Shown piece by piece: positions 5,784 through 21,502 of a stretch of 22,652 nucleotides of DNA (positions within the stretch are counted from its first letter, which is position 1; the number at the start of each line of letters is the position of its first letter). This DNA is from a virus: IMG/VR virus record IMGVR_UViG_3300019752_000022, positions 1-22,652 of that record. One strand, 5' to 3'. Made by a program: the position numbers and the translations under genes. The notes under the pieces were generated by a model, which was not told the origin of the DNA, ran no database searches, and was given only the letters and a program-made list of their open reading frames with translations.

Positions 5784-6244
5784 CAATCGAGAGATACAGG
5801 GCATCAGGCGGCGGGGAGTTTGTACTTGATGCCATCACGCTATCTGATGGCGTAACAACTCTGGGATACTGCCCTCAGTTTGAAGACTTTTCGACCCCGC
5901 AGGCTGGCCAGCTCTACGGAATCGCTATGGATGTGGTGGAGCCGTCACGCAACCCGCAGGGTGCACAGTCAATATCCGTGAGCATTGACAACACGACCGG
6001 GGAGATTAGCCGGTTTTTTATTGATGCCGCGCGAAACAATCGCCCTGTAACGATGACATACCGACAGTACCTGAGTACTGATTTAACGACCGAAGCCGAA
6101 GGTCCGTTTGTTTTTGATGTCAAAAAAACCGACTTTGACGCCGTAGAGGCAGTTATAACAGCCAGTTATTTTGATGTCCTCGGGACGGCATGGCCCCGCT
6201 ATCAGTTTAATCTCAATGATCACCCCGGCATCAGGTATCTGTAA
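5780..6244 (+). CDS. DUF1833-like minor tail protein
   Basis: A 154-aa protein resembling the DUF1833 family, usually encoded next to the tail-tip gene in siphoviruses. It begins MTIERYRASGGGEFVLDAIT, has a beta-rich body with QSISVSIDNTTGEISRFFID and RPVTMTYRQYL, and ends ATASYFDV-like (ITASYFDVLGTAWPRYQF), typical of the family. A GTG four codons upstream (5768) is possible, but the ATG in the ATGA overlap fits the coupling seen throughout this operon. Its biochemical role is not known; from position it is probably part of the tip complex. Confidence 0.68.
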   Translation: MTIERYRASGGGEFVLDAITLSDGVTTLGYCPQFEDFSTPQAGQLYGIAMDVVEPSRNPQGAQSISVSIDNTTGEISRFFIDAARNNRPVTMTYRQYLSTDLTTEAEGPFVFDVKKTDFDAVEAVITASYFDVLGTAWPRYQFNLNDHPGIRYL

Positions 6245-8661
6245 TGGCCAATATTTTACAAGCGGCATTCGGCCTCACCCTCATTCCTCAAGCTCTGGAT
6301 GCCATCGGGCGGTTTTTGACGCCAGGCATACCTGCAGGGCAGGAGGCGGGTAAATCCCTGTCACGCGCCGAAGCATCAGCCAACACGGCCAAACTAGGCC
6401 AGCCGGTGCGGGAGGCGTTCGGAACTAACGAAATATTTCCTGACTTGCTCAACCAGCCCCGCGCCCGGTTTGTCGACAAGCGGGAGGAGGAAACAAGCTA
6501 TTTCTTGTGCGTCGGGATGGGTGAATGCGAAATAGCAACCCGCCGAATCGGACAAACCCCGTTTGCAGTGTATGGGGCATCATCCACGACATACGCACCC
6601 GGCGCTGATGTGTCTGGTGACAGTCGTTCAGAATGCTGGTACCAGGCTCCCGAAGTGGGCGGCAGCCAGGGTAGTGCAGGCCTCAATCTCGGCAACACGA
6701 AACCCTCTGGCTCGTCCGTAATCGCCGAAACAGTCACATTTAGCGGCAATACCGCCACAGTCAATGGCGACATAGCAGAGATACCCGCGAGCTGGCAGAC
6801 GGGTACAATCATCAATATCAGAGCACCGATTGATGCAACAGTAACCGTGGCGACCCGGAGTGTGTTTTCAGGGGATTGGCAGGACGTAGAGCCATTCATC
6901 GGAATGAAAGTGACAGTATCGACCCCAGACCAGGATTTTTCTCTTGTCGTCAGTTCATGGACTGACAACTCAGGCACTGGCGATCTGCTGGAGTTTGATG
7001 ACGATTCCGGCAGCCCGTTTACCGGCCTGGCTGCTGGCAGTTATCGGGTGTCAATCGCGTATCGTGGCTATCAGTATGCCATCACCGGCGTTACGGCCAG
7101 CACCGTAACTTTTAACCGCCTGACTGATACCGGTGCTGTGGATTCTGGCTGGATTGGGTTTACCAGTCGCACGGTGTCAGATTACGAGGTTTCAAGCGAC
7201 TCAGCACCGTCCGAAGGGTGGTTCGGGCCTTTTTACGCAGTGCCAGAAGACGAAACAACCGACACTATCGAGCTGGATTTTTTGTTTAATGGCCTGATTC
7301 AGTACGACAAAGATGACGGCGACAAACATTCACTGACCCGAACGGCTGTGGTTCAGTGGCGTGTATCTGGCGGGAGCTGGACAGAAGTACAGTATCCATT
7401 CACGGAAAAAACCCCGGACACAATCGGATTTACCCGCGCCATTGACCTTGGTTCGCAACTCCGGCCACAAGTCCGGGTTCGCCAGCTTGAAGCACCGGGC
7501 GACACATCATACAAGACCAAGGTTGGTAAAATGCAATGGCTGAGACTGAAGGCAAAGTTTCCGTACCGGCCCACATCGTATGCGGGCATGACGACAATGG
7601 CCGTCACGCTGCCCTCTGGTGACAAATTAGCGCAGGCCGCAAGCAATCAAATCAACGTCATTGCAACCCGGATACTTGGAGGCTCACCCACCAGCTCGGT
7701 AATTGATGCAATCCGGCGAGTGCAGGAGTCGTCGGAAATGCCCGCTTCACAGGTGGATTACACGGCCCTGCAATCGCTTCAGGATGATTTTTACACCCCG
7801 CGCGGCGATGGCTTTGATTTTGTTTTTTCGGATGATGGGACAGTCTCCGACACGATGCAAACCATTATGTCAGCAGTGATGTCGTCAGTCATTCCCGATG
7901 GTGCAAAAATCAGCTTTGACCGTGAGGGTGTGCGCACTGATGATAGTGCTGCCCAGATAACCCCTGAGGACATGACAGCACAACTGCAGGTATTAGTGAC
8001 ACTCTCTCAGGAGGACGTTTTTAACGGCGTCGACGTCAAATATACCGATCCAGGCTCAAACAAAACAGAGACCGTGGAATGCAGATTGCCCGGAGTTGCC
8101 GCCACCAGGATTGAAAAAATCGAGGCAAGAGGCGTGCGCAGCAGAACCAGAGCTTGGCGCATTGGCATGCGCCAACTGAGGAAAAACCTATACCAACGCC
8201 TGACGCTGGACTGTGAAACAGAGCTTGATGCTCGCAATTATCGCTATATGCAACGGGCGTTTTTTATGGATGATATACCAGGCAATGGTCAGACAGCGCT
8301 TGTGGTTGGCTACTCTCAGGCTGGTGGTGTGGCAACGCTTGAGCTTGACAGGGCGCTTGACTGGTCTGGACTGTCCGCGCCCCGTGCCCTAGTGCGAGAC
8401 CATGAAGGGCAGTCCACTGGCGTGCTGGCACCAGCCCGAATAACAGACAGATCTCTGACTGTGCCTCAGGCATCACTCGGATTTACCCCTGTGACAGATT
8501 GGAGCATAGAGCCATGCCGTCTGACACTGTGCGAGAGCACGCGCACGGGTTACGACATGTCGATAGTCCAGATAAACCCCGACGATCGATTAAAAACGAC
8601 GATTAAGGCTGTAGAATACAGCGATGACTATTATCAAGATGACGACAATTCGCCGGAGTAA
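6244..8661 (+). CDS. Tail tip attachment protein J-like (central tail protein)
   Basis: An 805-aa protein at the position of the lambda J / host-specificity protein, which closes the tail tip and contacts the cell. The N-terminus contains hydrophobic segments (LQAAFGLTLIPQALDAIGRF) and then GQPVREAFGTNEIFPDLLNQPRA split by family-typical spacing. A region with YFLCVGMGECEIA precedes repeated beta-rich domains. The middle part VQWRVSGGSWTEVQYPF and the later DVFNGVDVKYTDPGS and RAWRIGMRQL resemble the hub portion of J-like proteins. The ATG overlaps the previous stop (TAATG). It lacks long C-terminal fibronectin repeats, fitting a phage where the following spike carries receptor specificity. 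Confidence 0.82.
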   Translation: MANILQAAFGLTLIPQALDAIGRFLTPGIPAGQEAGKSLSRAEASANTAKLGQPVREAFGTNEIFPDLLNQPRARFVDKREEETSYFLCVGMGECEIATRRIGQTPFAVYGASSTTYAPGADVSGDSRSECWYQAPEVGGSQGSAGLNLGNTKPSGSSVIAETVTFSGNTATVNGDIAEIPASWQTGTIINIRAPIDATVTVATRSVFSGDWQDVEPFIGMKVTVSTPDQDFSLVVSSWTDNSGTGDLLEFDDDSGSPFTGLAAGSYRVSIAYRGYQYAITGVTASTVTFNRLTDTGAVDSGWIGFTSRTVSDYEVSSDSAPSEGWFGPFYAVPEDETTDTIELDFLFNGLIQYDKDDGDKHSLTRTAVVQWRVSGGSWTEVQYPFTEKTPDTIGFTRAIDLGSQLRPQVRVRQLEAPGDTSYKTKVGKMQWLRLKAKFPYRPTSYAGMTTMAVTLPSGDKLAQAASNQINVIATRILGGSPTSSVIDAIRRVQESSEMPASQVDYTALQSLQDDFYTPRGDGFDFVFSDDGTVSDTMQTIMSAVMSSVIPDGAKISFDREGVRTDDSAAQITPEDMTAQLQVLVTLSQEDVFNGVDVKYTDPGSNKTETVECRLPGVAATRIEKIEARGVRSRTRAWRIGMRQLRKNLYQRLTLDCETELDARNYRYMQRAFFMDDIPGNGQTALVVGYSQAGGVATLELDRALDWSGLSAPRALVRDHEGQSTGVLAPARITDRSLTVPQASLGFTPVTDWSIEPCRLTLCESTRTGYDMSIVQINPDDRLKTTIKAVEYSDDYYQDDDNSPE

Positions 8662-16379: not shown

Positions 16380-16382
16380 CCA

Positions 16383-16423
16383 CCACAACCGGCCAAGCGC
16401 CGGTTTTTTCTGTCTGCAGTATT
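16383..16423 (+). repeat. Direct repeat copy A flanking the inserted gene
   Basis: The segment starts CCACAACCGGCCAAG, continues through the terminator hairpin and T-run, and ends with TGCAGTATT at 16415-16423. The same order recurs at 16869-16910. The first 27 bases differ by one base (loop C versus T), and the five bases before TGCAGTATT differ. It contains the transcription terminator described separately. Confidence 0.8.
16387..16409 (+). terminator. Rho-independent terminator of the early operon
   Basis: AACCGGC at 16387-16393 pairs with GCCGGTT at 16399-16405 around the loop CAAGC, followed by a T-run to 16409. It lies eight bases after the DUF551 stop. Confidence 0.9.
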
Positions 16424-16855: not shown

Positions 16856-16868
16856 AGGCCAGCCGCCG

Positions 16869-16910
16869 CCACAACCGGCCAAGTGCCGGTTTTTTTGTGC
16901 TTGCAGTATT
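16869..16910 (+). repeat. Direct repeat copy B flanking the inserted gene
   Basis: Second copy of the terminator-containing repeat, 486 bases after the first, with one extra T in the T-run and one substitution in the loop. It ends in the same TGCAGTATT (16902-16910). Recombination between the two copies would remove the intervening gene precisely and leave one terminator. Confidence 0.8.
16873..16896 (+). terminator. Rho-independent terminator after the inserted gene
   Basis: AACCGGC at 16873-16879 pairs with GCCGGTT at 16885-16891 around CAAGT, followed by T residues to 16896. It lies about 17 bases after the stop of the moron-like gene. Confidence 0.9.
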
Positions 16911-17845: not shown

Positions 17846-18297
17846 AGAAACCACCAAAGCCAACCGGCGAGGTTTTGAACCTTGGATTGGCCCGGATAAG
17901 GAAGGGAAGAACGCCAAGACCAAAGCACGGAGCTTGCCGCCACCTCAATCAGACGTACGACGAAGCAGAGCGCCGAGTGTGGTGTGATGACTGTGGTGAT
18001 GAGATTGAGGTATTTGATGCCTATATGGCCCTCATCAATCAGTATGATCGAATTCACAAGCATATAACCTCAAGGACTGAAGAAGCGATATCTGCCGAGA
18101 AGCATAACTTGGTAAGCCGGGCTGCAAAGTCGGTTGATAAGCATTGGAGGAAGCGAGATACAGTGCCGCTGTGCCCGCACTGTAATGAGGGCCTATTCCC
18201 CGAAGATATGGTTGACGGATTGTCAACGGCTTCAAAAAAATGGCTCAAGCAAAAGCGCGACAAGCAAAAGCGCGACAAGCAAACCAATCTGCTATAA
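17842..18297 (+). CDS. Zinc-binding phage protein of unknown function
   Basis: A 151-aa protein. The N-terminal part has Cys32-x-His34 and then WCDDCGDEIEVFDAY (Cys48, Cys51), a treble-clef-like zinc site common in phage accessory proteins. A second CPHC (Cys111, Cys114) is near the C-terminus. Between them is a helical region (RTEEAISAEKHNLVSRAAKS). The C-terminus is a basic repeat (KQKRDKQKRDKQ), encoded by a 15-base tandem duplication. The start is the ATG in the overlap with the antirepressor stop. The last codons reach into the promoter of the next leader: the TATAAT box overlaps its stop codon. Confidence 0.7.
   Translation: MKKPPKPTGEVLNLGLARIRKGRTPRPKHGACRHLNQTYDEAERRVWCDDCGDEIEVFDAYMALINQYDRIHKHITSRTEEAISAEKHNLVSRAAKSVDKHWRKRDTVPLCPHCNEGLFPEDMVDGLSTASKKWLKQKRDKQKRDKQTNLL
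18246..18282 (+). repeat. 15-bp tandem repeat just upstream of the 18293 promoter
   Basis: CAAGCAAAAGCGCGA occurs at 18246-18260 and again at 18261-18275, with a partial third unit to about 18282. It encodes KQKRD repeats and sits about 10-45 bases before the -10 box, where UP elements or regulators bind. Confidence 0.8.
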
Positions 18298-18298
18298 T
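18290..18298 (+). promoter_or_regulatory. Extended -10 promoter of structured leader 1
   Basis: TGCTATAAT is a perfect extended -10 element with no good -35. Transcription would start around 18305, directly before the structured RNA. The same TGCTATAATCAAA sequence stands before leader 2 (20220). Confidence 0.75.
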
Positions 18299-18310
18299 CA
18301 AAACCCCTTC

Positions 18311-18384
18311 GACGTTCTCTCGCGTCACGCCCAGTGGTGCGCTAACACCCTGGGCAACTCCTTTAGCGGGGAGTGGATGCGAGA
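18311..18384 (+). ncRNA. Structured RNA copy 1: three-way junction with kissing loops, C4-like candidate
   Basis: The closing stem pairs 18318-18326 with 18376-18384 (nine pairs including one G-T). Hairpin 2 pairs GCCCAG (18329-18334) with CTGGGC (18350-18355), then after a bulged T pairs GGTG with CACC; its loop is CGCTAA. Hairpin 3 pairs ACTCCT (18357-18362) with GGGAGT (18369-18374); its loop is TTAGCG, the exact complement of the first loop. A 5' hairpin (GACGT 18311-18315 with GCGTC 18322-18326) shares bases with the closing stem, so the two forms exclude each other. Copy 2 keeps every one of these features with different bases. Position beside antirepressors suggests a C4/CI-type antisense immunity RNA; that part is inference. 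Confidence 0.72.
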
Positions 18385-18403
18385 CCAAATAGAGAGAATC
18401 AAA

Positions 18404-19111
18404 ATGACAAAATACGCCCAAAAACCGCCTAAAATAACCGGCAAATCTAACCGATTTTACAAGGCAAGCCGCCGAGATGCCGTAGGCTCGAAAATGAGTT
18501 TCCATCGAAAAAACGGGGCTGGCTACAGCACCAATATTGCCGAAGCTGAAGTAATTACGCTAGAGGAAGCCCAGGACTGGTTTTGCCGATGCCGTGAATT
18601 CGAGGAGCCGTTGTGCGCCGACCGCGTTGATGCCCTGTCAGAACTTTGCGTCGACCATCAGTACATCCCGAGCGAGGGAGCCAAAGGGAATGATGGTGCG
18701 CTATATGCCGGATTTCAGAAGGGTCGGTTTTATGGTAATTTTGTGTACTGGCTCAGTAATAATGGTCTTCCAACGATAAAATTCGAACAAGCATCATTCA
18801 CTCACTCACCAGATTTTAACAGTGATTCCGTGGTTTGGATTCCTGCAATTTTGGCCGCCAAGGCCGCCAAAAGTCGAATAAGCACACACCTGATAGATCG
18901 ACGGTCAATGATTACATCAGCAGGATTAATCACCCCGGCCCGTATTAAAAACCAGCGCCGAAACTCCAACCGAATGACAACCGGAAAAACCCGCTGGAAT
19001 TGCCCGTGCTGCGGTCGAATAAACTGGCAGCATAACCCGTATGAGTTCGAGGGATGCTCTAACATCGATTGCGAAGAGTGGGCTCCACTCTATGAGAGGG
19101 GGAAGGTATGA
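18404..19111 (+). CDS. Hypothetical protein with C-terminal cysteine cluster
   Basis: A 235-aa protein without a recognised family. It starts at ATG 18404; the frame is open to 18134 but that part lies in the previous gene and in the structured leader. The N-terminus contains RFYKASRRDAVGSKMSFHRK and a segment with VITLEEAQDWF. The C-terminus has Cys200, Cys202, Cys203, Cys218 and Cys223 (NCPCCGRINW ... GCSNIDCEEW), likely a zinc ribbon. It is the gene directly behind structured leader 1, so its expression should depend on that RNA. The Shine-Dalgarno (AGAGAG) is weak. The stop overlaps the following fragment (ATGA). Confidence 0.68.
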   Translation: MTKYAQKPPKITGKSNRFYKASRRDAVGSKMSFHRKNGAGYSTNIAEAEVITLEEAQDWFCRCREFEEPLCADRVDALSELCVDHQYIPSEGAKGNDGALYAGFQKGRFYGNFVYWLSNNGLPTIKFEQASFTHSPDFNSDSVVWIPAILAAKAAKSRISTHLIDRRSMITSAGLITPARIKNQRRNSNRMTTGKTRWNCPCCGRINWQHNPYEFEGCSNIDCEEWAPLYERGKV

Positions 19112-19188
19112 GCATGCTCCTGATGGTCAAGGCCATGAACACCAAGGTCGGAAACCCGCTGCGCAAGTTGGTACTGATCAAGCTCTAA
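19108..19188 (+). pseudogene. N-terminal remnant of a helix-turn-helix replication-type protein
   Basis: A 26-codon open frame with a strong purine-rich site (GGGGGAAGG) and an ATGA overlap with the upstream gene. The peptide MSMLLMVKAMNTKVGNPLRK, then LVLIKL and a stop, looks like the conserved beginning of HTH_36-type phage proteins, which normally go on to a 'LADNAND-GECWPS' segment. Here the frame stops at that point and an extended -10 promoter begins immediately after. It is most likely what is left of a gene broken by recombination, though a functional leader peptide cannot be excluded. Confidence 0.5.
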
Positions 19189-19191
19189 TGC

Positions 19192-19200
19192 TGGTATAAT
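19192..19200 (+). promoter_or_regulatory. Extended -10 promoter of the second antirepressor
   Basis: TGGTATAAT, an extended -10 like the two at 18290 and 20220, stands directly after the broken HTH gene. No -35 at usual spacing is seen. Confidence 0.65.
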
Positions 19201-19204
19201 AACC

Positions 19205-19303
19205 TTGCGGCACTTGGGATAAACGGGAGTAGCTACCCACTCAAGCAGCCTATGTCTCCGGGCGCGCCGCAAATCTTTTCAATGGAGACGACAATTTGGA
19301 GAC
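19205..19303 (+). promoter_or_regulatory. Structured 5' leader of the second antirepressor with possible SD sequestration
   Basis: TTGCGGC at 19205-19211 pairs with GCCGCAA at 19266-19272, closing a domain of about 68 bases. Inside, CTTG (19213-19216) can pair with CAAG (19242-19245), extended by two more pairs. GTCTCC at 19254-19259 is complementary to two downstream GGAGAC copies (19284-19289 and 19298-19303). The second copy contains the GGAG Shine-Dalgarno seven bases before ATG 19309. The leader could thus hide or free the ribosome site. It does not share the kissing-loop plan of leaders 1 and 2. Confidence 0.5.
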
Positions 19304-19308
19304 TATCC

Positions 19309-19972
19309 ATGCAAAACATCACTCAAAAACCGTCCGTAATGGACACCGTTCAATTCCTGTCGGAAGTGATCAATCCCGCCCGTTCTGCCGAGAATGAAAA
19401 AACCGGTTCGCTATATTGATTTCTTGGCTCGCGTTAAAGATGAGATTGATTTCAGTCATGACGAAATTTTCGTCATGGATTCGACGGGCGGACGAAGCCG
19501 AGAAGCAATAAATCTAAACCACCAGCAAATGATTCTGGTTGGCATGCGCGAGTCTAAGTCTGTCAGAAAGCGAATACTGAAGCAGCTTGAAGGCATGAAG
19601 TCGCAAACACCAGTCCTGCCACAAACCTTCGCCGAAGCCTTGCAACTGGCAGCCGACCAAGCCAAGCAACTGGAAGCGCAAGCCCCAAAGGTCGCGTTTG
19701 TAGAAAACCTGGTAGAGCGCAAAACCCTGATGACCGCCACTCAAGTGGGCCAGAAGCACAAAATCAGCGCCATCAAATTGAACCGGATGCTGGACGACAT
19801 CGGCGGCATCTATAGTAAGAGTGTCAAGCGCTCACGGACATTTTGTCAGAGCTGGATTGACGGCGGGCTTGGCGAAATGAAACAGACAGAACTTGGTCAC
19901 TCACAGGCATTGTTCACCCCAGCCGGTGAAGTTGAGATCGCCCGCCTTCTGACATCGGAGGGCTTGGTATGA
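19309..19972 (+). pseudogene. Second phage antirepressor, split by a frameshift at an A6 run
   Basis: Two overlapping frames together spell one antirepressor. Frame one runs 19309-19419 (36 aa: MQNITQKPSVMDTVQFLSEV plus INPARSAENEK) and starts behind GGAG. Frame two runs from ATG 19394 to 19972 (192 aa: MKKPVRYIDFLARVKDEIDF, then MILVGMRESKSVRKRILKQL). The halves meet at six A residues (19396-19401); removing one A would join ENEK to PVRYIDFLARV, the sequence expected of this family. The C-terminal region (FAEALQLAADQAKQLEAQAP, then FVENLVE) matches the linker of the antirepressor at 17168. It may be a broken gene, a sequencing error, or a translated overlap; the downstream frame alone keeps most of the protein. 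Confidence 0.7.
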
Positions 19973-20211
19973 GTATGCAAATTAAAGCACAACCTGCGCT
20001 CAGCCTATTAAAAGGCGATACAGAGATAAACATCCATTCAGTTAGTGATGGCCAGGTCTATTACGGAATCTACTCAGGTGTTGGCGACAAACAAGACGGT
20101 CTCTGTGTTGGTTTATATCGCCTCAAAACAGATGATTTTGACAGACTCTTGAAAAAAGCCTTGGCTGATGGCTCAACTCCATTCACCAGGGTGGACCGAC
20201 TCGCGGTTTGA
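19969..20211 (+). CDS. Hypothetical 80-aa protein
   Basis: A small protein starting in an ATGA overlap with the antirepressor. It begins MSMQIKAQPALSLLKGDTEI and continues with HSVSDGQVYYGIYSGVGDKQ and a LYRLKTDDFDRLLKKALADG segment. The predicted fold is short beta strands followed by a helix. No family was recognised. Its ATGAGTATG start resembles that of the broken HTH remnant (ATGAGCATG at 19108), a hint that this operon slot has been rearranged. It ends just before the promoter of structured leader 2. Confidence 0.65.
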   Translation: MSMQIKAQPALSLLKGDTEINIHSVSDGQVYYGIYSGVGDKQDGLCVGLYRLKTDDFDRLLKKALADGSTPFTRVDRLAV

Positions 20212-20219
20212 TTCAGACA

Positions 20220-20228
20220 TGCTATAAT
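20220..20228 (+). promoter_or_regulatory. Extended -10 promoter of structured leader 2
   Basis: TGCTATAAT at 20220-20228, followed by CAAA, is identical in these bases to the promoter at 18290. No convincing -35 was found. The predicted start is near 20235. Confidence 0.75.
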
Positions 20229-20240
20229 CAAACTCCTTCC

Positions 20241-20316
20241 ACGGTTGCCTCGACCGTCCGCCCCAGTAGGTTGCAGCCTCTGGGGCACCTCCCCTGCAAG
20301 GGAGCTGGTCAGGCAA
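20241..20316 (+). ncRNA. Structured RNA copy 2: three-way junction with kissing loops, C4-like candidate
   Basis: The closing stem pairs TTGCCT (20245-20250) with AGGCAA (20311-20316) and, after a bulged C, GACC (20252-20255) with GGTC (20307-20310). Hairpin 2 pairs GCCCCAG (20260-20266) with CTGGGGC (20280-20286), has a bulged T and then AGG with CCT; its loop is TTGCAG. Hairpin 3 pairs CTCCC (20289-20293) with GGGAG (20300-20304); its loop CTGCAA is the exact complement of the other loop. A competing 5' hairpin pairs ACGGT (20241-20245) with ACCGT (20253-20257). Nearly all paired bases in the closing stem and the loops differ from copy 1 while pairing is kept. Confidence 0.72.
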
Positions 20317-20335
20317 ATAAAAATGAGGTAACACC

Positions 20336-21502
20336 ATGGCTATATTCAAAGCCGTTGTACATTCCGAGTACGCGCAAATCCCTAATTCAACCCTGCAAGA
20401 CAAGTCGCTCACTTTTGAGGCTCGCGGGCTTCTGGCTATGCTACTGTCTCTTCCTGAAGATTGGGAAATCCACAAGAGCTGGCTTCAGGGTCAATCCGTA
20501 AAGTGCGGTCGTGACAAGCTGACCAGAATGCTAAAAGAGCTGCAGGATTCTGGTTACGTCAGAAAGAAAATGAATCAGCGTGATGATGGGAAATTCTCCG
20601 ACATTGATTGGCTTGTATACCCAACCGCACAACTGAAAACCCGTTCAACGGAAAACCCGTCCGACGGAAAACCCGCAACTACAAAAGAAACAATTAAACA
20701 AAGAAACAAAAATACAAATATTGGCACACCTAACGGCATGCCCTGTAAAACCTGCGGTGGTGTTGGCAAGGGAATGGACGGGTTTGGCAATTACACAAAG
20801 TTACCGTGCCATGACTGCCAAGGCTCTGGAGTGATCGAAGAGCAGCCCTGCAAATTATGCGATGGCAATAAATATCTGGATGCGAAAAAACACGATTGGG
20901 ACTCAGGGACTGTTACGACGGAAAAAGTTAAATGCCCTGACTGCAACGGCACCGGAGTTGCTCCAGTAAAAACAGGATGCTGGATTTGTGAGCGCGAAGA
21001 AGGAACAGGCCCAGGGTGTGCAACGTGCAAGCCTGAGGTCACCGGCACTAATCAACCATCGGCACCGAATCCAGAACAGACGGCAATCGAGAACGCAAAG
21101 ACCAAGGGTTCCGCGCCGTATCCTGACGAATTTGAATGGGTCTGGAAAAACAAACCCCAGCGAATTGGTGCAAACCCGAAGAGGAAAGCCTACAACGCCT
21201 GCCGTGCAAGACTCAAAGAAGGCGCAACATGGCGGGAGCTGGCTGAGGGCATGAAGCGCTATTCCGAACACTGCAAAACTGAACAGAAGCTGAACAGCCA
21301 GTACGTGATGCAACTCGCAACCTTCTTCGGCCCTGACGAGCATTTCAAGGAGCAATGGCAGACGCAGCAGAAGGCGCAGGAAGGCGCGCAAGCCGAAAAC
21401 CCTACTACTGACCCAGAGTCATACACAAAAGCCCCAGAAATAACGCAGGAACAGCTAGAATCGACATCAAAACAATTATCTAACCTAAAGGGGCTGCTGT
21501 GA
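20336..21502 (+). CDS. Replication-associated winged-helix protein with DnaJ-like zinc repeats
   Basis: A 388-aa protein directly upstream of the DnaB gene, the slot of phage replication initiators or helicase loaders. Residues 1-95 form a winged-helix domain (FEARGLLAMLLSLPEDWEIH, then RDKLTRMLKELQDSGYVRKK). Residues 137-231 hold a cysteine cluster of the DnaJ type: CKTCGGVG, CHDCQGSG, CKLCDGNK, CPDCNGTG, then CWIC and CATC. The C-terminal part (FEWVWKNKPQRIGANPKRKA, YNACRARLKEGATWRELAEG) looks like a small helical domain often found in such proteins. GAGGT six bases upstream of the ATG fixes the start, which is about 20 bases beyond structured leader 2. The stop shares a base with the helicase start (TGATG). 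Confidence 0.78.
   Translation: MAIFKAVVHSEYAQIPNSTLQDKSLTFEARGLLAMLLSLPEDWEIHKSWLQGQSVKCGRDKLTRMLKELQDSGYVRKKMNQRDDGKFSDIDWLVYPTAQLKTRSTENPSDGKPATTKETIKQRNKNTNIGTPNGMPCKTCGGVGKGMDGFGNYTKLPCHDCQGSGVIEEQPCKLCDGNKYLDAKKHDWDSGTVTTEKVKCPDCNGTGVAPVKTGCWICEREEGTGPGCATCKPEVTGTNQPSAPNPEQTAIENAKTKGSAPYPDEFEWVWKNKPQRIGANPKRKAYNACRARLKEGATWRELAEGMKRYSEHCKTEQKLNSQYVMQLATFFGPDEHFKEQWQTQQKAQEGAQAENPTTDPESYTKAPEITQEQLESTSKQLSNLKGLL

Follow-up and report, generated by a model that had tools for sequence, protein, structure and literature searches.

Promoter-proximal leader RNAs with mutually complementary, covarying loops in a temperate-type phage: two candidate bistable translational switches

Two RNAs encoded in the window (the whole 22,652-nt stretch analysed, a single IMG/VR virus record, IMGVR_UViG_3300019752_000022, from an uncultivated phage of temperate type) fold as three-way junctions whose two hairpin loops are complementary to each other; each lies between a promoter and the start of a gene, and the 5′ strand of its closing stem can pair with the ribosome-binding site (RBS) of that gene in a fold whose computed energy is close to that of the open one. 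On this model, each copy may be a promoter-proximal bistable translational switch for the following gene, equipped with a loop–loop helix, a reading that we favour tentatively and with just under even confidence.

Fold and loop complementarity

The positions given to both RNAs by the first-pass annotation were right, and both fold as the three-way junction described there (z −4.31 for copy 1 and −3.28 for copy 2, with no shuffle folding equally well). Copy 1 (18318..18384, + strand, as for all features of the two RNAs) is closed by a stem of 9 bp (18318-18326/18376-18384), which encloses H2 (18329-18355, with one bulged T) and H3 (18357-18374); loop 2 of the former, CGCTAA (18340..18345), and loop 3 of the latter, TTAGCG (18363..18368), are exact reverse complements. 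In copy 2 (20245..20316), where the closing stem comprises 11 bp with one bulged C (20245-20256/20306-20316) and is thus longer than first written, although closing stems are present in both copies as claimed, the same relation holds between loop 2, TTGCAG (20271..20276), of H2 (20260-20286) and loop 3, CTGCAA (20294..20299), of H3 (20289-20304). The pseudoknot-free energy model adds one U–G pair to H3 of copy 1 and to H2 of copy 2, which gives these hairpins 4-base loops in isolation.

The earlier statement that stems and loops differ in sequence between the copies yet keep their pairing is borne out by the structural alignment (A7, trimmed to 66 columns and containing two sequences only), in which 59 of 60 pair cells hold a standard pair and both sides have changed in 16 of the 30 pairs, loop–loop pairs being counted in both figures; when the partners were slid by 1–3 columns as a control, at most 2 double-changed pairs were obtained. 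The double changes fall in the closing stem (7 of 9 pairs), H2 (4 of 10) and the loop–loop helix (5 of 6), from which the covariation derives because the H3 stems are nearly identical in both copies; with only two sequences, it represents internal covariation and not a phylogenetic test. In both copies the complementarity between loops 2 and 3 spans exactly six bases and ends at the loop edges, not extending into the stems, and the loop–loop duplex energies of −5.6 and −6.1 kcal/mol within copies, against −2.0 and −2.3 kcal/mol across copies, indicate that loop pairing is specific to each copy. The number of matching two-hairpin arrangements expected by chance is 0.06 per shuffled window, for a closing stem of at least 6 bp and a second stem of at least 5 bp and with the H2 lower stem not counted. 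In a scan of 1.62 Mb of phage and prophage sequence requiring an upstream TATAAT, only both copies and one further locus were recovered, the latter, in phage contig L096, being matched on both strands, while three shuffles gave 0.0 matches.

Selected complementarity between the loops is well supported, since it is kept in both copies with different sequences and recurs in two more leaders in L096, an unrelated phage contig, and to this extent the original description as a kissing-loop RNA stands, whereas an intramolecular tertiary contact would be only one way in which the loops might pair. These two L096 leaders, the loop covariation in two copies and the shuffle controls all argue against a structured but non-regulatory leader, serving for instance in transcript protection and with only incidental complementarity, which we consider very improbable.

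The manner in which the loops would meet is constrained by the linker between H2 and H3, of only 1–2 nt. On geometric reasoning, a coaxial cis kiss over all 6 bp would need strong bending across this distance, so that an unbent cis kiss is disfavoured, and the loops may just as well kiss between molecules, in which case the number of transcripts would affect expression. The short linker, by the same reasoning, and the full complementarity of the loops within but not between copies, seen in the duplex energies, would also suit a homodimer or oligomer in which loop 2 pairs with loop 3 of another molecule and the assembly is the functional state. The phi29 packaging RNA, a three-way junction with covarying left and right loops (PMC12670572), offers a precedent, and the window RNAs resemble it in having two mutually complementary, covarying loops on a three-way junction. 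They differ from it, however, in that the phi29 loops pair between molecules in the motor ring, whereas the window RNAs are mRNA leaders with six-base loop pairing in an early regulatory region, preceding regulatory and replication genes and outside any packaging gene region, which makes this explanation improbable.

Leader position and complementarity to the ribosome-binding site

Tail genes occupy the first half of the window and regulatory genes follow from about 13 kb on, the regulatory stretch consisting of three tandem promoter–leader–gene units. Both RNAs are 5′ leaders of early genes, each placed between an extended −10 promoter and the gene start. The promoter element TGCTATAAT lies at 18290..18298 (+) in copy 1, where it is followed by CAAA, and at 20220..20228 (+) in copy 2, and sequence comparison shows the extended −10 13-mer TGCTATAATCAAA to be identical at the two copies; we infer that transcription starts from these promoters. 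In both cases about 20 nt separate the −10 element from the RNA and another 20 nt or so its end from the start codon. The gene under the copy 1 leader (18404..19111, +) belongs to PHROG 2457, of function not known and with homologues in P1/P7 and Vibrio phages, and that under the copy 2 leader (20336..21502, +) encodes a replication-initiation-type protein (PHROG 270 and others), which contains a DnaJ-like zinc-finger region at residues about 132-186 that its relatives in contigs L002 and L003 lack. The third unit, with TATAAT at 19195, a leader and a KilAC antirepressor-type gene, sits between copies 1 and 2.

In both copies, the closing stem's 5′ strand and the bases immediately preceding it are complementary to the RBS of the copy's own downstream gene. 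The copy 1 segment GTTCTCTC (18314..18321, +), which overlaps the 5′ closing strand, forms 8 bp with the RBS GAGAGAAT (18392..18399, +) in the forced-pairing fold, and the corresponding segment of copy 2, GTTGCCTCG (20244..20252, +), likewise overlapping the closing strand, forms 9 bp, including a G–U pair, with TGAGGTAAC (20324..20332, +). The two segments occupy homologous positions and their runs are contiguous (8 and 9 pairs); when the RBS regions were shuffled, both copies reached 8 or more pairs at one and the same alignment position with a frequency of about 2e-5. As a caveat, the pyrimidine-rich arms are also fairly good partners for other ribosome-binding sites. In both copies the 3′ closing strand is similar to the RBS (GCGAGA and AGAGAGA in copy 1, AGGCAA and AGGTAA in copy 2), as expected if both compete for the 5′ strand. 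Neither the leader position nor this complementarity, which is the best functional clue, figured in the first-pass annotation.

Forcing the anti-RBS pairing leaves the inner junction and both hairpins folded, and in a 121-nt leader the RBS-covered fold lies 1.4 (copy 1) and 2.9 kcal/mol (copy 2) above the open fold, a cost that rises to 4.2 kcal/mol in a shorter copy 2 construct; spacer shuffles match or beat the observed alternative in 0.9% (copy 1) and 0.8% (copy 2) of cases. The open state is predicted as favoured in both copies, so that something else would have to bring about the OFF state. In the switch proposed here, the 5′ closing strand would, in one state, rest on its 3′ partner, so that the junction is closed and the RBS free; in the other, the outer closing stem would be exchanged and the 5′ strand would lie on the RBS, closing the gene without unfolding the inner junction, H2 or H3. 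The loop–loop helix, whether formed within one RNA or between two, could then lock or tune the switch.

Purine and lysine riboswitches are likewise junction RNAs with a loop–loop contact and a closing helix that competes with the expression platform, and the window RNAs, with their junction, complementary loops and a closing helix in competition with the RBS, invite the reading of a ligand-binding riboswitch of this type. Nevertheless, a ligand pocket would be conserved, whereas the window RNAs lack a conserved junction core, the junction strands differing between the copies (AC/UCC, A/AC and G/C); the searches described below returned no homologues, and the genes are phage regulatory genes, not metabolic ones, all of which leaves a riboswitch highly unlikely.

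An antiterminator like put of HK022, two copies of which would modify RNA polymerase downstream of early promoters, agrees with the promoter and hairpin positions common to both window copies: putL is found immediately downstream of its promoter, and putL and putR are alike, about 70 nt long and built of two adjacent hairpins (PMC9378689), so that in both phages two related RNAs of about 70 nt with two hairpins are promoter-proximal. However, put acts on RNA polymerase, through the zinc-binding domain of the enzyme, and is described as two stem-loops with neither a closing stem nor complementary loops (PMC9378689), whereas the closing stem of the window RNAs measures 9–11 bp and carries 7 double changes. 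Moreover, a search for intrinsic terminators across 18100-20500 (+ strand) gave none, and the anti-RBS match would be left unexplained; put-like antitermination is thus quite improbable.

Homologue searches and relation to C4

No Rfam family was detected in the whole window at the gathering score or at E<=10, DNA-pattern searches of IMG/VR and GTDB genomes recovered no relative, and blastn of each RNA against phage records gave chance matches of 19–24 nt only. The 20 genome matches to the DNA patterns, and one other viral match, were chance-like on inspection. Of the covariance models built from copy 1 (R1) and from both copies (R2), the former matches copy 2 in register with 12.9 bits, though only in a small unfiltered search, and the latter gave nothing above 15 bits in 39 related phage loci; four matches of 22–28 bits to R2 in 398 Pseudomonadota genomes, mostly G+C-rich and without the arrangement, were judged to be chance. 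The exact junction shape is known from two sequences only, both in one phage. Sequence-based searches would miss such a design because little except the pairing is conserved, and the findings suggest an RNA on/off switch that has no Rfam entry. Among six records carrying PHROG 2457 homologues, from P1/P7, IME10 and Vibrio phages, most show the gene overlapping an upstream gene or starting shortly after it, with no room for such a leader, and the RNA is therefore not tied to this family.

The nearest known kind is C4 of P1/P7, a three-way-junction leader RNA recognised by the same Rfam library (RF01695), in which the loop of the second hairpin is complementary to the downstream RBS sequence and differs between P1 and P7; its maturation by RNase P to a length of about 77 nt, its action in trans and its a′ and b′ loops have been described (PMC5320573). 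The window RNAs share with it the setting of a phage leader near antirepressor genes, the three-way junction of a closing stem and two hairpins, and the orientation towards the downstream RBS sequence. They differ in that the RF01695 model gives no match (at the gathering score or E<=10), the loops are complementary to each other and not to the RBS, the anti-RBS segment (longest match) is the 5′ closing strand instead of a hairpin loop, and a second target site downstream of the RNA is lacking. We therefore call both RNAs a variant of this phage leader-RNA kind and not members of C4, since shape, place and RBS logic are common to the C4 group but the loop-to-RBS pairing is not.

These likenesses bear on a further explanation, in which the leader would be processed to a small RNA that binds its own or another RBS in trans, giving immunity-style repression of the C4 type, with the loops serving in dimerisation or target mimicry. 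The precedent of a junction leader whose loop is complementary to the downstream RBS (PMC5320573) speaks for it, as does a C4-like RNA at 19205-19272, between both copies and with counterparts in the same slot in relatives. Against it, neither loop of the window RNAs is complementary to the downstream RBS or has a target of at least 10 nt elsewhere in the window, the anti-RBS strand lies hidden once the RNA has folded, and the Rfam C4 model finds no match, so that we regard a trans antisense as unlikely. Should the switch reading hold, the C4 idea of an RBS-directed leader RNA would gain a loop–loop lock and could respond to transcript number.

Leaders in related phages

The third leader of the window (19205..19272, +), considered as a further copy of the reported RNA, was rejected as such and is C4-like, with a closing stem, the hairpin GGGAGTAGCTACCC and a GTCTCC segment complementary to two downstream GGAGAC sites. 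A 36-aa ORF (19309-19419) starts after it and overlaps, in a different frame, the KilAC-type ORF (19394-19972), which lacks the usual Rha N-terminus; the two may be either separate genes or one rearranged antirepressor gene. In L002 and L003, a C4-like leader complementary to the gene's RBS precedes the homologue of copy 2's replication gene, and this equivalent position implies that the slot is interchangeable and carries RBS-directed leader RNAs. The switch reading, if true, would explain why the leader RNA in this slot differs from one relative to another.

Contig L096 (IMGVR_UViG_3300046329_000062), a phage contig reached via the antirepressor gene, contains two leaders in which the six-base loops are fully complementary; the stems and sequences of these leaders are unrelated to those of the window. 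Leader A (about 976-1043, within 976-1066; loops CGGCAA/TTGCCG) precedes the Rha/KilAC gene of the contig, and leader B (about 7035-7126, within 7035-7149; loops CACGAA/TTCGTG) the gene at 7150. The second hairpin of these leaders is shaped like an intrinsic terminator, which suggests that the same loop pairing is coupled here to a different output. In leader A the strongest downstream duplex covers the RBS, and AACCTTT of its terminator arm matches the RBS AAAGGTT; in leader B no clear anti-RBS segment was seen by eye. It is possible, although somewhat doubtful, that a recurring and undescribed class of phage leaders exists in which complementary loops change in concert, the output being translation in the window and a terminator in L096, and in which kissing of the loops, inside one transcript or between several, determines early gene expression and might also sense how many transcripts there are. 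If the switch reading is right, phages would run early genes via small RNA switches made of self-complementary hairpin loops.

The same contig contains a match to the Rfam int-alpA RNA (RF02996) at 6216-6280, as the leader of a phage Rha-type gene. Like the window RNAs, int-alpA is a phage gene leader with a closing stem and two hairpins; it differs from them in that the loop of its second hairpin, TTCGCCC in L096 (6216-6305), is complementary to GGGCGAA just downstream and shows no mutual loop complementarity, and its covariance model has no match in the window at the gathering score or E<=10. This pairing suggests that int-alpA RNAs may be C4-like antisense leaders.

C4-like leaders also occur in diverse phage contigs (L002:4583, L003:1065, L049, L051, L053, L055, L063, L065, L067 and others), where a closing stem is followed by the GGGAGTAGCTACCC hairpin, whose loop holds the palindrome TAGCTA, and then by a stretch that can pair with one site, or often with two in tandem, ahead of the start codon; the sequence of the antisense-target match varies between contigs. 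The pattern gave 19 matches, some of them probably due to chance, and neither the window's third RNA nor its C4-like relatives were recognised by Rfam; these leaders apparently form an undescribed family. Elsewhere in the window, a 30-bp repeat, 93% identical between 16380-16409 and 16866-16895 and 486 bp apart, is shaped like an intrinsic terminator (ACCGGC...GCCGGTTTTTT).
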